Part shown: piece after piece, positions 12,084 through 33,270 of the stretch
Numbering within the stretch: position 1 is the stretch's first letter
How the letters are laid out: every line of letters starts with the position of its first letter
DNA from: Verrucomicrobia subdivision 6 bacterium
GTDB taxonomy: Bacteria; Verrucomicrobiota; Verrucomicrobiia; Methylacidiphilales; Verrucolacustridaceae
Direction: 5' to 3'
NCBI GenBank assembly: GCA_947466515.1
Contig: CANIEM010000007.1
Coordinates: 1 to 55,877, forward strand
DNA: 55,877 nt
Notes under the pieces: model-generated
The model's input: the letters and a program-made list of their open reading frames with translations, nothing else
What the model was told of the DNA's origin: nothing
The model's database searches: none
Made by a program: the position numbers and the translations under genes

Positions 12084-13184
12084 TTAGCGATCGACTCGTG
12101 CGCCACCGCCACCAAGAAGTTTTTCTACTTCCGCGAGAGAGGCCATCGAAGTGTCGCCAGGAGTGGTCATAGCGAGAGCTCCGTGGGCGGCGCCGTATTC
12201 GACGGCCTTCTGTGGGTCGCCGAATTTCAAAAAGCCGTAGATGAGGCCTGAGGCAAAGCTATCTCCGCCTCCAACCCGATCCATGATTTCGAGATTTGGG
12301 CGCTGTTGAGATTCATAGAATTTTCCGCCGGCCCAGAGAATTGCGCTCCAATCGTTGATGGTGGCCGATTTTACTCCCCGCAACGTAGTGGCGATGGTTT
12401 TGAAATTCGGATACTCCTTGGCGGCTTGCTCGATCATCTTGTGAAAGCTGTCTTTTTCGAGATGGGTAAGATTTGTGTCAGTCCCTTTCACCTCGAGGCC
12501 AAGACAAGCGGTGAAGTCCTCCTCGTTTCCGATCATCACGTCGACGTTCTTGGCGATCTTCTTATTCACTTCTTGGGCTTTTTTCTGGCCGCCGATTCCT
12601 TTCCAAAGAGAGGGCCGGTAGTTGAGATCGTAGGAGACGACCACGCCGTGCTTGCGAGCGGCAGTGGTGGCTTCAATGACAAGCTCGGCGGTGCTTTCAC
12701 TGAGGGCGGCAAAGATCCCTCCGGTGTGAAACCACCGTGTTCCGTGCTTTCCGAAAATCAGATCCCAATCGAAATCGCCCGGCTTGAGTTGGGAGACGGC
12801 GGTGTGACCGCGGTCGGAGCAACCGACAGCTCCGCGGACTCCAAAGCCGCGCTCGGTAAAGTTTAGTCCGTTGCGAACTGTCCGGCCGATGCCGTCGTAA
12901 GTACTCCATTTGAGCAGGGAAGTATCGACACCACCTTGCAGGATAAAATCTTCAACAAGTCGGCCGACATCGTTATCAGCAAAAGCGCTGAGCAAGGCGG
13001 TGCGAAGGCCAAAGCAGCGGCGGAGTCCACGGGCCACATTGTACTCCCCGCCTCCTTCCCAAGCGCGGAAAGAGCGAGCGGTGCGGATGCGGCCTTCGCC
13101 TGGATCGAGACGGAGCATGACTTCGCCCATAGAAATCTCATCGAACCGGCATGATTCGGCGGGTTTCAAATTGAAAAGGCTCAT
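12084..13184 (-). CDS. kdgK: PfkB-family sugar kinase, probable 2-keto-3-deoxygluconate kinase
   Basis: A 366-residue ribokinase-fold enzyme. The PfkB signature DRVGGGDSFASGLIYG (about residues 312-327) contains the catalytic aspartate and anion hole, and the N-terminal glycine pair in AWEGGGEYNVARGL fits substrate binding. The assignment to KDG kinase (KDG + ATP to KDPG) rests on position: its ATG overlaps the TGA of the KDPG aldolase gene, and the unit lies in a uronate degradation cluster. It is longer than typical KdgK (about 310 residues) because of inserted segments around residues 110-130 and 225-260. Another hexose or ketose specificity is possible. Confidence 0.85.
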   Translation of the reverse strand: MSLFNLKPAESCRFDEISMGEVMLRLDPGEGRIRTARSFRAWEGGGEYNVARGLRRCFGLRTALLSAFADNDVGRLVEDFILQGGVDTSLLKWSTYDGIGRTVRNGLNFTERGFGVRGAVGCSDRGHTAVSQLKPGDFDWDLIFGKHGTRWFHTGGIFAALSESTAELVIEATTAARKHGVVVSYDLNYRPSLWKGIGGQKKAQEVNKKIAKNVDVMIGNEEDFTACLGLEVKGTDTNLTHLEKDSFHKMIEQAAKEYPNFKTIATTLRGVKSATINDWSAILWAGGKFYESQQRPNLEIMDRVGGGDSFASGLIYGFLKFGDPQKAVEYGAAHGALAMTTPGDTSMASLAEVEKLLGGGGARVDR

Positions 13185-13828
13185 GATTTAGCTCCGGTGG
13201 TGATTTGGATAGCTTCCTTGGTGAGTCGAGCGATGGTTTCCCATTCTGCCGCTTGAATGTACTTCTTGTCGACAAACCAAGATCCTCCAAGTGCAGCGAC
13301 GGATTTAAGGGCAAGGTAGGGAGCGATGTTGTTGAGCTGTAATCCGCCCGTAGGAATGAAACGCACTCCAGTGTGGCCGTAGGGTCCTTCGAGTGCTTTG
13401 AGGTAGGTGGCGCCGCCTGCCTGCTCAGCGGGGAAAAACTTTTGGATCGAGCAGCCGAGCGAAAGACCTTTCTGGATTTCGCTGGGGGTAATGATGCCAG
13501 GAACAAAGGTGAGTTTTGCCTTTTGGGCAGCGAGGACGACTTTCTCGTCCAAGCCTGGGGCTAATCCGAATTGTGCACCTGCATCGGCGGCTTTTTTGAC
13601 CTGATCGGAATCGAGCAGAGTGCCTGCGCCTACGAGCATCTTGGGACACTGCTTGGCGATTTGGCGGATCGATTCCTCCGCCGCCGCCGTCCGAAAAGTA
13701 ATCTCGATAACTCCGAGACCTGCAGAGAGGAGGGTTTGAGCGAGATCCACTGCACGTGAGGCGTCATCGATAACCACCACGGGAACGAGTCGGCGTTCTA
13801 GAAGGCGGTGCGTGAGGTCAACGCTCAT
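13181..13828 (-). CDS. kdgA: 2-dehydro-3-deoxy-phosphogluconate (KDPG) aldolase
   Basis: A 215-residue class I aldolase that splits KDPG to pyruvate and glyceraldehyde-3-phosphate (the family can also act on 4-hydroxy-2-oxoglutarate). Motifs: VVVIDDASRAVDLAQTLL near the start, VIEITFRTAAAEESI with the conserved glutamate, VGAGTLL, and IQKFFPAEQAGG, where the lysine should form the Schiff base. FIPTGGLQLNN makes the phosphate site. It overlaps the kinase start by 4 bp and follows the Gfo/Idh gene by 11 bp, so the aldolase-kinase pair works as a unit completing uronate breakdown. Confidence 0.95.
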   Translation of the reverse strand: MSVDLTHRLLERRLVPVVVIDDASRAVDLAQTLLSAGLGVIEITFRTAAAEESIRQIAKQCPKMLVGAGTLLDSDQVKKAADAGAQFGLAPGLDEKVVLAAQKAKLTFVPGIITPSEIQKGLSLGCSIQKFFPAEQAGGATYLKALEGPYGHTGVRFIPTGGLQLNNIAPYLALKSVAALGGSWFVDKKYIQAAEWETIARLTKEAIQITTGAKS

Positions 13829-13839
13829 GGGGGATTAGA

Positions 13840-14988
13840 TTAAGCCAGCTTGGGCACATCAAGCCAGCGCCGTTCGGCCCACGATTGCAGGCCGAGTTCC
13901 GCTAGCTGGACACCTTTAGCGCCCTCGTGAAGCGACCAGGGGAAGGGTTCGTTTAGAACGACGTGCCGAAGGAAAAGTTCCCACTGAACTTTGAAGGCGT
14001 TGTCGTAGATCGCATTGCTCGGTTGGGCGGTCCATCCGTCCATGTAGGCGACGGGACTGTCTTGATCGGGGTTCCACAGGCAGCGGGGGGTGGCGGAGTT
14101 GTCCTGGACTGTGCAGTTGCGAAGACCGGCGACGGCGGAGCCATCAGTTCCGTCGACTTGGAGGGTCAGTAGGTCGTCGCGTTTCACTCGGACGCACCAT
14201 GAGGAGTTGAAGTGGCAGATGACTCCGTTCTTGAGTTCGAAGGTGGCGTAGGCGGAGTCATCCGCCGTGCACTTGTATGGTTTTCCGTTTTCGTCCCAGC
14301 GTTCAGGCAGGTGAGTGGCGCCAAGACAGGATAAGGATTTGATGTCGCCAAAAAGATTTTGGATGACGTATTGCCAGTGGCAAAGCATGTCGACGATGAT
14401 GCCGCCGTCGTCTTCCTTACGGTAGTTCCAAGAGGGGCGTTGGAGCTTTTCGAATTTCCCTGGGAACACCCAGTAGCCGAACTCTCCGCGGACGGAGAGG
14501 ATTTTACCGAAGAAGCCGGTGTCGATGAGGTAGCGAAGTTTGAGAAGTCCAGGGAGCCAGAGTTTATCTTGGACTACGCCATTCTTAAGTCCTGCGGCAG
14601 TGACTTCCTTGGCCAAGGCGAGAGCTTCCTTGGAGGTAGTGGCAGTTGGCTTTTCGCAGTAGATATGTTTTTTGGCGGCGATGGCTTTGCGGACTCCGAT
14701 CGGGCGCTGGCCGGTGAGAGTGGAATCAAAGTAGATTTGATTGGCGGGATCTTTGAGGGTGGCATCGAGGTCGGTGGAGACGCGGGTTATACCGTGGGCG
14801 GCGCCCAAGGTGCGGAGCTTTTCCTCGCTGCGACCCACGAGGATGGGATCGGGCATAATGACTTCGCCTGGTTTGATCTGGACGCCGCCCTGTTTACGGA
14901 TGGCGACGATGGAGCGGATGAGGTGTTGATTGGTGCCCATGCGTCCGGTGACTCCGTTCATGATAATGCCGACTTTATGTTCTTTCAT
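13840..14988 (-). CDS. Gfo/Idh/MocA family oxidoreductase
   Basis: A 382-residue NAD(P)-dependent sugar oxidoreductase, cytoplasmic (no signal peptide). The N-terminal dinucleotide loop reads [11 protein letters not shown], and the hallmark HIYCEKPTA lies at about residue 108, with the conserved lysine of the EKP motif. The C-terminal beta-sheet domain includes [19 protein letters not shown]. The substrate is unknown; the cluster suggests a uronate, an amino sugar or a derived keto acid. It is separated from the upstream GxxExxY gene by a 301-bp spacer full of palindromic repeats, so the downstream half (this gene, aldolase, kinase, MFS) may be transcribed separately. Confidence 0.88.
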
Positions 14989-15289
14989 ATTTTTATCTCA
15001 CGCTACGTGGATTATGGTTTTAGGGATTGCTCACGCAAAGGCCGCTAAGGACGCCACGAATTTTTCCCGCGGTTGCGGGACGCGCTTTCGCGCGGATTGG
15101 TTAGGGGTTGGGTTGGAGGAAGAAGTTTAGATTTGAGAATGCTCACGTCCCGCGTTTCCGGGACGCGCTTTCGCGCGCAAAGGTCGCTAAGGACGAGAAG
15201 GGGGTTGGGAATAGTCACGCAGAAGACGCGAGAGAATTGGAGAGAAGTCATACAAGGGACGCTGCACTGATTGAGGTGAAGGAGTGGCT
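14989..15289. repeat. Gene-free spacer packed with palindromic and CTCACGCAAAGG-type repeats
   Basis: No gene is seen in this 301-bp stretch. It holds a CTCACGCAAAGGCCGCTAAGG copy at 15030-15060, then a double hairpin at 15065-15094 (TCCCGC..GCGGGA followed by CGCG..CGCG). A second double hairpin at 15147-15176 interrupts another copy of the first repeat, and a short degenerate copy lies at 15213-15232. These elements divide the minus-strand uronate cluster and may terminate, attenuate or stabilise its transcript. Confidence 0.75.
15141..15196 (+). repeat. Palindromic element nested inside a CTCACGCAAAGG-type repeat
   Basis: CTCACG at 15142-15147 runs into a GTCCCG..CGGGAC hairpin and a GCGC..GCGC hairpin. 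The sequence then resumes with CGCAAAGGTCGCTAAGGACG. Removing the palindrome rebuilds a unit nearly identical to the uninterrupted copy at 15030-15052. The same palindrome type occurs at 15065-15094 and, diverged, near 32770 and 33098. Confidence 0.65.
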
Positions 15290-15712
15290 TCATAGACCGT
15301 TGACCACTCTTTCGATTCCATCTTTGAGATGAGGAACTCCAAAATTGATTAAAAGGCCGAGTTTATGGTGGCTAAGTCGGAGATAGGTGAGGAGCTGCTT
15401 GGCGAAGAGCTTTTTCATTTCCTCGGTGGACTTCAGCTCGACGATTACCTTGTCTTCCACGATTAGGTCGGCTCGGAAACCCTCGGCGATCTCTAGCCCA
15501 TCTACTAGAATGGGGATTGCGACTTGATTTTTAACCTTCCATCCAGCTTTTTCCAGCCGGTGGGTTAAGACTTTCTCATAAACGGTCTCAAGAAGGCCGG
15601 GTCCTAGATCCGTATGAATTTGAAAGGAGGTATCGAGGATTGAGCGGGCAATTTTGTCCTCTTCTGTTTGAAGAAAGACCTTTCCGTCCTTGGCGAACTT
15701 GGCGTGAGTCAT
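15290..15712 (-). CDS. GxxExxY protein (PD-(D/E)XK nuclease-like)
   Basis: A 140-residue protein with the GxxExxY motif in LGPGLLETVYEKVLTHRLEKAGW (about residues 36-58). It is followed by FRADLIVEDKVIVELKS, whose D..E.K arrangement matches a PD-(D/E)XK nuclease core (PDDEXK_3-like), and by LLTYLRLSHHKLGLLINFG. Function is unknown; nuclease activity is only implied by the fold. ATG 15712 overlaps the stop of the cupin gene (ATGA). The first eleven residues (MTHAKFAKDGK) are encoded by DNA matching the intergenic repeat family found on both sides. This suggests the gene arrived with, or is evolutionarily tied to, those repeats and is a recent intruder in the uronate operon. Confidence 0.88.
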   Translation of the reverse strand: MTHAKFAKDGKVFLQTEEDKIARSILDTSFQIHTDLGPGLLETVYEKVLTHRLEKAGWKVKNQVAIPILVDGLEIAEGFRADLIVEDKVIVELKSTEEMKKLFAKQLLTYLRLSHHKLGLLINFGVPHLKDGIERVVNGL

Positions 15713-16155
15713 TGTGGTTTTTTTGTGCACTGGGGTTGGGCACCCGCCGGAAGGGCGGGAACATCGATGCCTGCTTTGGGGAGGGTGCCCTCCAGCTCTT
15801 GTTTCCAATGGGCAACATCTCCCGCTGGGCCGTAAACGTAGATCATTCTCATGGGTTTATCTCCCGTGTTGGTCAACTGGTGAAAAACCTTGGAAGGAAT
15901 GAAAACAGCTTGGCCTGTTCGAACAGCTCGGCGTTCTTCGCCGAGACACATTTCTCCTTCTCCTTCGACGATGAAGTAAACTTCTTCCTGCTCTTGGTTG
16001 TGCCAAGGAACTTGGCCTCCATTGGGTTCGAGGGTGACGTTGCCCATGGAAAAGTTCTTTGCTTGGACAGGGGAAAGACCGCCAACGAGATTCTGAGTAC
16101 GACGACGGGCGGGATAGGTACGGCCTTGGATTTCGTTGAGGTCTGCAATGATCAT
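15709..16155 (-). CDS. Cupin-domain protein, possibly KdgF-like
   Basis: A 148-residue single-domain cupin. The first metal motif is visible as VPWHNQEQEEVYFIVEGEGEM (about residues 50-70: His, Gln, Glu), and the second as FIPSKVFHQLTNTGDKPM with its histidine. Cytoplasmic. Small cupins in uronate loci can be KdgF, which linearises unsaturated uronate monomers released by lyases and GH88; that role fits this position but is inference. A plain sugar-binding cupin is the alternative. The C-terminal 30 residues are proline-rich. It lies 106 bp after GH88, separated by a repeat copy, and its TGA overlaps the next start. Confidence 0.72.
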   Translation of the reverse strand: MIIADLNEIQGRTYPARRRTQNLVGGLSPVQAKNFSMGNVTLEPNGGQVPWHNQEQEEVYFIVEGEGEMCLGEERRAVRTGQAVFIPSKVFHQLTNTGDKPMRMIYVYGPAGDVAHWKQELEGTLPKAGIDVPALPAGAQPQCTKKPQ

Positions 16156-16172
16156 GTGTGGGGCTCCTGAAA

Positions 16173-16212
16173 TCTCACGCCAAGTCCGCTAAGGCCGCGA
16201 AGGACAGAAAGG
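16173..16212 (+). repeat. CTCACGCCAAG-type intergenic repeat
   Basis: TCTCACGCCAAGTCCGCTAAGG and following bases, on the plus strand between the cupin and GH88 genes. This copy is the closest match in the window to the DNA encoding the N-terminus of the GxxExxY protein, which reads ACTCACGCCAAGTTCGCCAAGG on the minus strand just inside 15712. Confidence 0.65.
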
Positions 16213-16261
16213 GTTCTTTGATTCATACACAACATTACGGACGTAGTGTGAAGAGTTTGCA

Positions 16262-17647
16262 TTATGGTTTGTCTCCAAAGAAGGTGAGGTACGGTTTTCC
16301 GTCGGCGAGGCGGAGCAGGTAAAGAGCGAGTTCGCGAAGGTGGTAGTCGCCCCACATGGCGGCCTCGCCACAGGGGACTTTGCGTCCTTTCGGAATATGG
16401 TCCCAGCCGTTGGGGCGGTGATAGACGGTATGGAGGAGAAGGCCCTCGTGCTTGGGATCGGAGGAGAGGTAGGGCTCGGAGAAAAGAGTCCGGGCGGTGG
16501 TCAGTCCAGCGGAGAGATAAGTTTGGGCGGCTTTTTTATCTCCTTTTTTCTCGAGGATGCGGGCGAGGCGGAGAAGGCCTTGGGCGGAGATGGCGGCGGC
16601 GGAGCTATCCACGGGTTCATGTTCATTGAAAGGATCGGCGGGGCGGTTGAGGTAATCGCCGAGATGAACGAGGCCAGGGGCGCCAGTATCCCAGTAAGGA
16701 ATGCCGTCGGTGGGAGTTTCGCGAAGGTAGAAGTCGGCGGTGACGCGGGCGACTTCGAGGTAACGATCGAGGATTTTTTGTTTCCCTCCAAAGTCTTTGA
16801 ATTCGGATTCGGGGAGAAGCTCAAGGAATTCGTACTGTTCAGGGAAACCGCAGAGGAGCCAGGCGTGACCGCGGGTCCAGGTGGTAAAGGCGGAGTAACC
16901 TTGCTGGGTGGAGGGGCAGCGGTAGGCGCCGTCGGTGACATTAAAAATGGATTCATGGACGACACGGCCTGGAACGTCGTAAGTGTCGCGACCTTTGCCG
17001 TAGTAGACATTGTAACGGGCGGTAGTTTCGGCGTGTTGAAGAGAGCGATGGAGGAGATTGATTTTGGCATCGTTTTCTCCCATGAGCCGATGACCCAGAA
17101 TGTGGGCAAGGCTGAGGGCGCGGAGAGAGCGGATGGTATCGGAGAAAAGAGATTGAGGGCCGTTGAAAGAGCGGATGTAGCCGAGGTCGGGGGTGAGTTG
17201 GGTCCAGCGGGAGGCTTGGACGGCGCCGCTGGCTTTGAGGGCGAGATCGTAGAAGTGGGATTCCCAATCGTTGGAGGGGAGACGACCTTCGCGGAGGAGT
17301 CGGCGTAGATTGCCGTAGGTGCTGACATTGTTGAAGCCGTGATCGTGAACCCCGATGTGGGTGACGTGGACGGCCATTCGGCGGAGGGTGGCGTCCCGGC
17401 CGATCTTGAGCATGGATTCATCTCCGGTGGCATCGTATTGAAGGATGGCAGATCCGTAGACGAAGCCTTCGGTCCACTCGGTCCAACCGCGGGAGGTGTA
17501 TTTTCCCTCGATGGTGAAGACGGGGGTACCGTTTGATTCCTTCCAGCGCTTTTGGAGGGAGAGGATTTTTGGAGCGGAGGCCTCAAAGACCTTTTTGGCG
17601 GAAGCTTCGAGACTTTTTGCTGTGAGGGAGGTATCGCTTTGGATCAT
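16262..17647 (-). CDS. Glycoside hydrolase family 88, unsaturated glucuronyl hydrolase
   Basis: A 461-residue (alpha/alpha)6-barrel enzyme that removes the 4,5-unsaturated uronate from lyase products by vinyl-ether hydration. Family features: GKYTSRGWTEWTEGFVYG near residue 50, HIGVHDHGFNNVS near 105 with a conserved Asp in HDHG, and FNVTDGAYRCPSTQQGYSAFTTWTRGHAW near 255, matching the WxRGQAW signature. No signal peptide is convincing when started at ATG 17647, so it is probably cytoplasmic. An upstream ATG at 17722 would run 71 bases into the SDR gene and is less likely. It starts 4 bp after the SDR stop, which indicates cotranscription. Together with the PL8 lyase this points to hyaluronan, chondroitin or a similar uronate polymer. 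Confidence 0.92.
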   Translation of the reverse strand: MIQSDTSLTAKSLEASAKKVFEASAPKILSLQKRWKESNGTPVFTIEGKYTSRGWTEWTEGFVYGSAILQYDATGDESMLKIGRDATLRRMAVHVTHIGVHDHGFNNVSTYGNLRRLLREGRLPSNDWESHFYDLALKASGAVQASRWTQLTPDLGYIRSFNGPQSLFSDTIRSLRALSLAHILGHRLMGENDAKINLLHRSLQHAETTARYNVYYGKGRDTYDVPGRVVHESIFNVTDGAYRCPSTQQGYSAFTTWTRGHAWLLCGFPEQYEFLELLPESEFKDFGGKQKILDRYLEVARVTADFYLRETPTDGIPYWDTGAPGLVHLGDYLNRPADPFNEHEPVDSSAAAISAQGLLRLARILEKKGDKKAAQTYLSAGLTTARTLFSEPYLSSDPKHEGLLLHTVYHRPNGWDHIPKGRKVPCGEAAMWGDYHLRELALYLLRLADGKPYLTFFGDKP

Positions 17648-17651
17648 AAAA

Positions 17652-18440
17652 TTAAAATCGACGCAGGTGGAACCCGCCGTCGATGTTGATAATATCGCCA
17701 GTGCTGAAGGGGAAATCGCCACGGCAGATGGCTTTGGCGGCGAGGCCTACGTCTTCGGGTTTTCCCCAGCGTTTTTGTGGGACGAGGCCTTCGGCGATGA
17801 GTTTGTCGTACTTGTCTTTTACGCCACTGGTCATGTCGGTGGCCATGACGCCTGGGCGAAGTTCGATGACTTGGACGCCTTCGGCGGCGAGGCGGGTAGC
17901 CCATAGTTGGGCGGCCATGGCGAGACCGGCTTTGGAGATACAGTATTCTCCGCGGTTGACTGAAGCGGTGTTGGCGGAGACCGAGGTGACGAAGATCAGT
18001 TTATAGCCACCTGGGAGAAGTGATTTTCCTGGGTTAGCGAGCCAGTATCGGGCGGCGAGTTGGGTAAGGAAGTAGGGGCCCTTGAGATTCACGGTAAGAA
18101 CCTCGTCAAAGATTTCCTCTTTGGCGTCTGGGAGATCGGCGCGTTCGCGGGGGGCGATACCTGCATTGTTGATCAGGGCATCGAGGCGACCAAATCCGTC
18201 GATTACCCGCTGGATCAGGCTGGCGCGGTCTTCAGAGGAGGCAAGTTGGGCGGGAACGGCAAGGAACTTCTGGTCTTTGGTTTTGGCTACGGCTTGGCAA
18301 GCGGCGACGGTTTCCTCGGCAGCTTGGCGGTTGGAGGCGTAGTGGATAGCGAGGTCGTAGCCTTCGGGGGCGAGAGAAAGGGCGACTCCACGACCTAGGC
18401 CACGGCTGGCTCCGGTGATAAGAATGACAGGTCGAGGCAT
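17652..18440 (-). CDS. SDR family oxidoreductase, probable uronate-pathway dehydrogenase (KduD/DEH-reductase-like)
   Basis: A 262-residue classical short-chain dehydrogenase. The cofactor loop is TGASRGLGRG, then NNAGIAP, a serine in FVTSVSA, and the YxxxK pair in GEYCISKAGL. It ends in INIDGGFHLRRF. Such proteins are often named 3-ketoacyl-ACP reductase, but the first-gene position in a uronate cluster favours interconversion of a diketo- or DEH-type acid with 2-keto-3-deoxygluconate. No KduI is present, which leaves the substrate open. It is divergent from the AraC-type regulator, with about 86 bp between starts, and is the promoter-proximal gene of the cluster. Confidence 0.85.
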   Translation of the reverse strand: MPRPVILITGASRGLGRGVALSLAPEGYDLAIHYASNRQAAEETVAACQAVAKTKDQKFLAVPAQLASSEDRASLIQRVIDGFGRLDALINNAGIAPRERADLPDAKEEIFDEVLTVNLKGPYFLTQLAARYWLANPGKSLLPGGYKLIFVTSVSANTASVNRGEYCISKAGLAMAAQLWATRLAAEGVQVIELRPGVMATDMTSGVKDKYDKLIAEGLVPQKRWGKPEDVGLAAKAICRGDFPFSTGDIINIDGGFHLRRF

Positions 18441-32713: not shown

Positions 32714-33270
32714 GACATGAAGCAGTGCCAGACGCGGAGCGGATCAGTTTTTTTTTGGGATCAAGGTAAGGTCCCGCATTCCCGAGGCGCGCTTACGCCG
32801 CGGATTGCTCACGCTAAGCCCCGACGCGGGTCGGGGTAGATATGCTGAGGTCGGAAAGAAAATTAACTTTTTTAAAAAAGCCGTTGCGACCTTAGCGACC
32901 GTGGCGTGAGGCATGGAATTGCTCAGGCTAAGCCCCGACGCGGGTCGGAGTAGAAACGCAAACCCTCCTTCGCTCGGTCTCGGTAAACCTCGCTGAGCTT
33001 CGGAGGGCGCTTGGGACGGATAGGAGGGATTATTTTTAATTTTGAATGTTTAATTTTGGATTGGCGGAGAGCGCCTGGGGCGGATGGGGATTTTCGATGT
33101 CCCCCGCAGTAGCGGGACACGCTTACTCGGGGGAATTGAGCGCTTGTTTACGTTCTTTTCCGTTTAGAAAAGAACTAGGACGACCGAGCCTACTACGTTC
33201 CGCCGGCGTTACTTCGAAGGCTAAGGGATAGTCGTCCCTACCGGTGTTGTGGTTTGGAGGTGAGGTGAAG
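32714..33270. repeat. Gene-free region of intergenic repeats downstream of the giant genes
   Basis: No gene is seen in 557 bp. Contents: a run of nine T at 32748-32756; a palindromic unit near 32770-32803; and a 42-bp direct repeat at 32804-32845 and 32918-32959, each with CTCA(C/G)GCTAAG and the hairpin CCCCGACGCGGGTCGG. There is also a minus-strand CTCACGCCACGG-type copy at 32884-32912, an AT-rich stretch near 33030-33060, a CCCCCGCAGTAGCGGGACACGC palindrome near 33101 and a long hairpin element at 33178-33237. Confidence 0.7.
33178..33237. repeat. Hairpin element with GGACGAC/GTCGTCC ends
   Basis: The outer arms GGACGAC (33178-33184) and GTCGTCC (33231-33237) are inverted repeats, with an inner AGCCT/AGGCT pair. 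It contains GAGCCTACTACGTTCCGC (33186-33203), identical to 46081-46098. Confidence 0.65.

Follow-up and report, generated by a model that had tools for sequence, protein, structure and literature searches.

GxxExxY Nuclease Genes Placed Between Inverted Short Repeats: a Proposed Counterpart of REPIN-RAYT

Closest Described Systems

By analogy, the closest functional counterpart of the gene and repeats treated here appears to be the REPIN-RAYT system (PMC3116915), which is built on an unrelated enzyme. The two have in common a gene placed beside or between palindromic repeats, dispersed gene-less inverted doublets with variable spacers, a gene that is usually in single copy per type, and several types per genome, every one paired with a repeat specific to it; the gene-bearing form of RAYT is likewise reported not to multiply like an insertion sequence (PMC3116915). 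The differences regard the enzyme, a PD-(D/E)XK protein in GxxExxY and a Y1 HUH transposase in RAYT, and the repeats, which are iterated 8-10-bp units in the first case and REP palindromes in the second; in addition, the RAYT-type genes of the same genomes lack the GxxExxY-type repeats. Of the hallmarks of REPIN-RAYT, the dispersed inverted doublets that also flank the gene are thus found with GxxExxY, in a different sequence, whereas the Y1 transposase is not.

As for the enzyme, GxxExxY is a very common bacterial nuclease family of uncharacterised role, which shares the fold and the catalytic set (E, D, ExK and QxxxY) of the Cas4/RecB family (SSO0001, AddAB, AdnAB, lambda exonuclease). The known members of the latter occur in CRISPR or recombination operons, whereas GxxExxY is stand-alone and repeat-bounded, with a core of about 120 aa; PD-(D/E)XK with QxxxY is present, while the CRISPR context and the conserved cysteines of Cas4 are absent, and with the latter its iron-sulphur cluster. 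The archaeal Hjc Holliday junction resolvases are similar in size and fold (1gef, Z 7.0, 87 residues, rmsd 3.4), and their structure-specific cutting would fit palindromic substrates; however, no sequence relation appeared in a PDB sequence search, and the likeness is at the level common to PD-(D/E)XK proteins. PD-(D/E)XK homing endonuclease genes are also small nuclease genes at sites that are empty in relatives, but in GxxExxY the arms come with the gene, there is no intron or intein context, and gene-less copies are many. Finally, short non-coding palindromic repeats between genes are known as MITEs or miniature palindromic elements and as Geobacter intergenic multicopy sequences (PMC2700814, PMC2996986); the accessible parts of these reports name no associated gene, whereas the repeats treated here go with one particular nuclease family. 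In the open-access literature searched, GxxExxY is named in passing only, and no earlier account linking GxxExxY/PF13366 to repeats was found.

The GxxExxY Protein

The window, that is, the whole stretch of 55,877 nucleotides that was analysed, contains at 15293-15712, on the minus strand, a GxxExxY gene of about 140 aa, predicted from profile matches and an AF2 model to encode a minimal Cas4/RecB-like PD-(D/E)XK nuclease. The protein matches the full models of TIGR04256 (132.7 bits, cut-off 35) and PF13366 (127.8 bits, cut-off 22), and has the motif and the catalytic residues of the GxxExxY/PDDEXK_3 family; a search of the whole assembly (2.06 Mb, 84 contigs, 88% complete) found it to be the single GxxExxY gene of this genome.

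In 22 diverse members the invariant columns are G39, E42, Y45, D82, K94, Q106, Y110, G119, N123 and F124, with E92 also present, and this conserved set corresponds, as read from the alignment, to a predicted RecB/Cas4-type PD-(D/E)XK site with QxxxY; none of the invariant or nearly invariant columns is a cysteine. For the contig search a tighter alignment was used, these 22 sequences being too diverse. Structure prediction from the single sequence gave a pLDDT of 37.9 and was replaced by the alignment-based AF2 model, with a pLDDT of 91.4 and a pTM of 0.84. The best PDB match of this model is SSO0001 (Foldseek 7e-4, Z 9.3, 101 residues, rmsd 4.4); Hjc and many nucleases match at Z 6-7, a level common to unrelated PD-(D/E)XK proteins. 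At the sequence level, the GxxExxY profile matched nothing in the PDB, and matches to Cas4 profiles were weak, with best E values of 0.19 and 0.029. Regarding selection, a dN/dS of about 0.11 over 18 pairs indicates that the family is under purifying selection.

The Locus and its Repeats

The gene lies between an upstream cupin gene (15709-16155, minus strand; putatively KdgF-like by its position), whose stop TGA overlaps the GxxExxY ATG (ATGA), and a downstream oxidoreductase gene (13840-14988, minus strand; apparently Gfo/Idh-like by its sequence), the latter used as anchor in the empty-site comparison. The minus strand from 12084 to 18440, assigned by eye, resembles an operon for uronate/pectin catabolism, with SDR, glycoside hydrolase, cupin, oxidoreductase, aldolase and sugar kinase genes.

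The repeat has a full unit of about 30 bp, CTCACGCAAAGGCCGCTAAGGACGCAAAGG, with a period of 9 bp, and the 2.06 Mb genome holds 48 copies at up to 3 mismatches versus 1 for a reversed-pattern control. At the same tolerance, shuffles predicted 0 copies in the window and 4 were found, at 15030-15050, 15688-15708, 16174-16194 and 32890-32910, the last a distant copy on the minus strand that emerged from a pattern search of the window; a fifth copy, at 15172-15201, is split by another element. At least 4 copies fall within 14990-16250, where 0.03 were expected (Poisson P 3e-8, a value that ignores the general clustering of copies). The earlier note was right that copies lie on both flanks of the gene, and its coordinates were correct to within a few bases.

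Two of these copies are the arms of the gene. The upstream arm, CTCACGCCAAGTTCGCCAAGGACGGAAAGG, occupies 15679-15708 on the minus strand and is translated here as the N-terminus, while the closing arm, CGCAAAGGTCGCTAAGGACGAGAAGG, is inverted and lies at 15172-15201 on the plus strand, with its CTCACG end displaced to 15142-15147 by a nested second interspersed element of family D2 (TCCCGCGTTTCCGGGACGCGCTTTCGCG; about 15148-15175, up to 15184, the exact edge being approximate), which splits the arm. Farther out, a gene-less repeat block at 15029-15110 (plus strand) joins a repeat copy (15029-15059) to the second element (15065-15101), and beyond the cupin gene the copy at 16173-16203 (plus strand) is inverted relative to that of the start codon, to which it is 83% similar. 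The arms of the window score 27-28, and matches as good occur in 0.2% of random stretches; the window gene was not counted as positive in the surveys described below, since this score falls under their threshold of 30.

The repeat-rich intergenic regions of this genome are composite. The second interspersed element (TCCCGCGGTTGCGGGACGCGCTTTCGCGCGG; 15065-15101 and 15148-15184) often adjoins the first repeat or sits inside it, and at L004, L013, L014 and L028, in other parts of the genome, a similar sequence accompanies repeat copies; a third interspersed sequence, GTTGGAAGCTTAGGTAGGGGCGGCATCTCCGAGGCCG, lies within about 100 bp of repeat copies at L004, L009, L010, L011, L013, L014 and L020. 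When the arms and palindromes were compared with Rfam, no RNA family was matched, and a neighbouring tRNA was the sole hit.

A Start Codon Within the Repeat

Read from 15712, the minus strand is ATGACTCACGCCAAGTTCGCCAAGGACGGAAAGG and encodes MTHAKFAKDGK; the same start, given also as ATGACTCACGCCAAGTTCGCCAAGGACGG, matches the repeat CTCACGCCAAGTCCGCTAAGG with 2 mismatches, and the stretch concerned, CTCACGCCAAGTTCGCCAAGG at 15688-15708 on the minus strand, lies inside the first codons of the gene. The N-terminus is therefore a translated repeat copy, as had been noticed from the window alone. The 15 N-terminal residues are outside the conserved domain and have low model confidence.

It could be argued that the overlap is due to chance, or that the start codon of the window gene is wrongly assigned, and the rarity of translated repeats among relatives (7 of 101 cassettes) would agree with this. 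However, no in-frame ATG, GTG or TTG occurs between the repeat and the GxxExxY domain, so that the start of this gene must be inside the repeat or 5' of it; moreover, the flanking arms and the empty site do not depend on the start call, and the arm surveys of the order, of many phyla and of the independent set contradict an accidental origin, which is accordingly hardly credible.

The emphasis that the earlier note had put on the repeat-coded N-terminus as the linking feature did not survive the comparison with other cassettes. A start codon is available past the upstream repeat in 93 of the 101, at a median of 7 nt, and is found only within the repeat in 7; reading the start from the repeat is incidental, the window gene is of the minority type, and repeat-coded N-termini were rejected as an essential feature. 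At the other end, translation often runs into the closing arm and gives a C-terminal extension, as in L337 and other cassettes (e.g., ...SASSAPLR and ...FAPSRLRDRSSVF), and this is the counterpart of the repeat-coded N-terminus.

Inverted Arms and Protein Subfamilies

The organising feature, which the earlier note missed, is a pair of inverted arms, one at each end of the gene, together with gene-less palindromes elsewhere. In 60-odd GxxExxY genes of the order, purine-rich repeats with a period of 8, 9 or 10 bp stand directly 5' of the start, and their reverse complement directly 3' of the stop. For the surveys, the stretch upstream of each gene was locally aligned with the reverse complement of the stretch downstream, a score of at least 30 being counted as positive; the test is blind to diverged arms and silent on which strand or structure matters, and many of the genomes used are incomplete MAGs.

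Within the order, 78% of 64 genes had cognate inverted arms, compared with 2.7% of 590 control ORFs from the same loci and 4.3% of non-cognate pairs. In a set drawn from many phyla (Acidobacteria, Armatimonadetes, Bacteroidetes, Cyanobacteria, Planctomycetes, Proteobacteria, Chloroflexi, Verrucomicrobia and others) the value was 65% of 77 genes versus 2.7% of 338 control ORFs; here non-cognate pairs reached 20%, because the subfamily concerned has the consensus TCTCACGCAAAGRCGCAAAGRCGCAAAG in common across phyla. Finally, in an independent set, taken from another 10 genomes of the phylum, cognate arms were found at 71% of the 38 genes; among non-cognate pairs the share was 2.8%. Counting against the explanation preferred here, a fifth to a third of the genes have no cognate arms that reach the threshold.

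Arm sequences go with protein subfamilies. The similarity of the arms correlates with that of the proteins (Mantel r 0.45, with 0 of 300 permutations as high), and repeat similarity is 0.21 where the proteins are less than 45% identical and climbs to 0.58 where they exceed 65%; for the nearest protein neighbour from another genome, at less than 70% identity, it is 0.467, whereas permutation gave 0.27 on average and 0.304 at most. A protein that recognises the repeat would be expected to show such tracking. Part of the match is due to common descent of entire cassettes, which still implies that arms and gene stay together. Subfamily YWGPGLIESIYEKSLAHE (L280, L281 and L289) has little or no arm structure, and two of its copies, with 85% identity, occur in one genome; it may be a lineage that lost its repeats.

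At the level of whole genomes, an excess of at least 5 repeat copies was found in 43 of 133 genomes with a GxxExxY gene versus 3 of 106 without it (239 genomes of the phylum); with labels shuffled within families the association is weaker than these raw counts, with P 0.018, or 0.0006 for a capped sum. Within the genus of the window, the own-genome repeat count gave no support to a link with gene presence, congeners without a detected gene having up to 50 copies; this highest count, from G054, in which no gene was detected (the MAGs being incomplete), also weighs against the preferred explanation.

Empty Sites in Relatives

Comparison of orthologous junctions shows that gene and arms change together, although gain and loss are not strictly separable. 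At the site of the window, two congeners, G056 and G060, have a short and empty junction; in their downstream protein, the 201 residues compared show 100% identity. A third congener, G054, has nothing there but the gene-less repeat block, which in the window lies at 15029-15110. Among these genomes, the additional segment of about 15115-15715, with gene and arms, is present in the window alone. No clear target-site duplication was seen at this site, where the relatives have diverged. At the same junction, G005 (L116/L227) has a GxxExxY gene of a different subtype with its own arms, apparently an independent insertion.

Two further sites behave alike: between nuoE and nuoF, gene and arms are carried by G030, G032, G035, G037, G039 and G040, whereas G033, G034 and G041 have an empty junction; upstream of mutL they occur in G011, G012 and G013 and are absent from G014 and G009. 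At all three sites the closest empty relatives lack the arms too, from which it follows that gene and arms appear and disappear together, and the empty sites whose existence in relatives the earlier note had proposed as a check were found in this form. Its suggestion that gene and repeats belong together stands as regards a link beyond chance and gain or loss as a unit, and falls as regards the repeat-coded start as the link. In G031, where relatives carry GxxExxY, the nuoE-nuoF junction (L122) has nested repeats of several types around a different ORF, which encodes about 100 residues, looks membrane-like by eye and is possibly another cargo gene.

These sites bear on the possibility that GxxExxY is a homing-type parasite, which invades pre-existing palindromes by cutting them and is copied in at repair, while the palindromes spread by other means. 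The gene does sit in the loop of palindromes that also occur without it, and at the nuoE-nuoF junction G036 has an 80-bp gene-less palindrome where relatives carry the gene; that palindrome, however, belongs to a different repeat type, homologous repair would have little to work with in arms of about 26 bp, and the absence of arms from the closest empty relatives argues for a unit of gene and arms, so that homing is unlikely.

Gene-less Palindromes and Copy Behaviour

Gene-less repeat copies number in the hundreds across genomes. In G146 and G160, by hand count from the repeat lists, inverted neighbour copies up to 300 bp apart face inward in 10 of 10 cases, forming palindromes of 80-260 bp overall with 26-bp arms and unrelated loops. 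G012 has a dispersed family of near-identical 65-86-bp palindromes (GACAGGATTAACAAGATGGACAGGATTTTC...ATCCTGTGCATCCTGTAAATCCTGTC), and its matching cassette is placed between two of them; the ACAGGAT-type repeat is present in 34 copies in this genome versus 1, 0, 0 and 0 in genus siblings without the cassette. This is the clearest link of one cassette to one repeat family, and it regards one genus only; G033 is a counter-example, with 34 ACAGGAT copies and no intact cassette of that type.

As for the gene-bearing form, each cassette has one ORF only, a nuclease, and copies within a genome are nearly always divergent, which counts against the preferred explanation, with a median maximum identity of 0.51 and at most about 54% in 15 genomes of the order; the exception is one pair at 85% (0.85) in the phylum set. 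The several near-identical gene-bearing copies per genome of an insertion sequence are therefore lacking, apart from this pair, and the cassette is not an IS-like multiplier.

A further alternative is that GxxExxY is a host gene with cis elements, the arms being regulatory hairpins or ribosome-binding or termination signals of a housekeeping nuclease, and the repeats having spread by unrelated means. The repeat ends at the above-mentioned median of 7 nt 5' of an available start codon, purifying selection is strong, and the genes are often within co-directional gene strings, all of which would suit a host function; this reading is nonetheless rather unlikely, given that the distribution is sporadic (21 of 62 genomes of the order), that the empty sites are precise, and that the gene-less copies are so many.

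The repeats might instead be moved by a RAYT/IS200-type or other transposase, with GxxExxY as a passenger. The palindromes resemble REPINs (PMC3116915), and Y1 transposase genes occur in 43 of the 62 genomes of the order, this one included. Nevertheless, 8-10-bp-period repeats flank 0 of 30 Y1 genes, while other inverted repeats are found at 9 of 29, and arms that track the subfamily are not expected of a passenger; RAYT genes are thus not supported as movers of the repeats, and the passenger role is very unlikely. Two small genomes of the order, G025 and G024, lack a GxxExxY gene and have 47 and 15 matches to Y1 transposases, respectively.

Proposed Model and Meaning

The explanation preferred here, and regarded as probable, is that GxxExxY genes and short interspersed repeats are one element, in which the nuclease recognises the inverted arms and acts in trans on spreading palindromes. 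The minimal Cas4/RecB-like enzyme would recognise inverted arms composed of about three 8-10-bp units, probably in a folded or extruded hairpin form, and may cleave the hairpin. The gene would stand between arms, which belong either to a single palindrome, with the gene in its loop, or to two palindromes that enclose it, and its site would often be a junction of co-directional genes; gene-less palindromes would be non-autonomous derivatives, acted on in trans and spreading through the genome, and each protein subfamily would have its own arm sequence. The repeat would often supply the sequence beside or over start and stop codons, and within the model this is why the first codons of the window gene are repeat DNA. 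GxxExxY is proposed as the enzyme that acts in trans because the system does not belong to REPIN-RAYT and the Y1 genes are without these repeats.

More broadly, and with chances judged a little better than even, the GxxExxY nucleases of many phyla would be dedicated partners of a large, unrecognised class of palindromic repeats, similar to REPIN-RAYT and separately evolved from a Cas4/RecB-like nuclease, with arms and protein co-evolving into numerous specific pairs.

In conclusion, if the model is true, a widespread nuclease family of unknown function would gain a role and a testable substrate, and a class of short repeats, dispersed between genes in bacteria of many phyla, would gain an owner. 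For a DNA-cutting protein of very small size, the pairing of subfamilies and arms would offer a natural series of enzymes with their sites, and the odd N- and C-terminal extensions of these proteins would be explained as translated repeat DNA.
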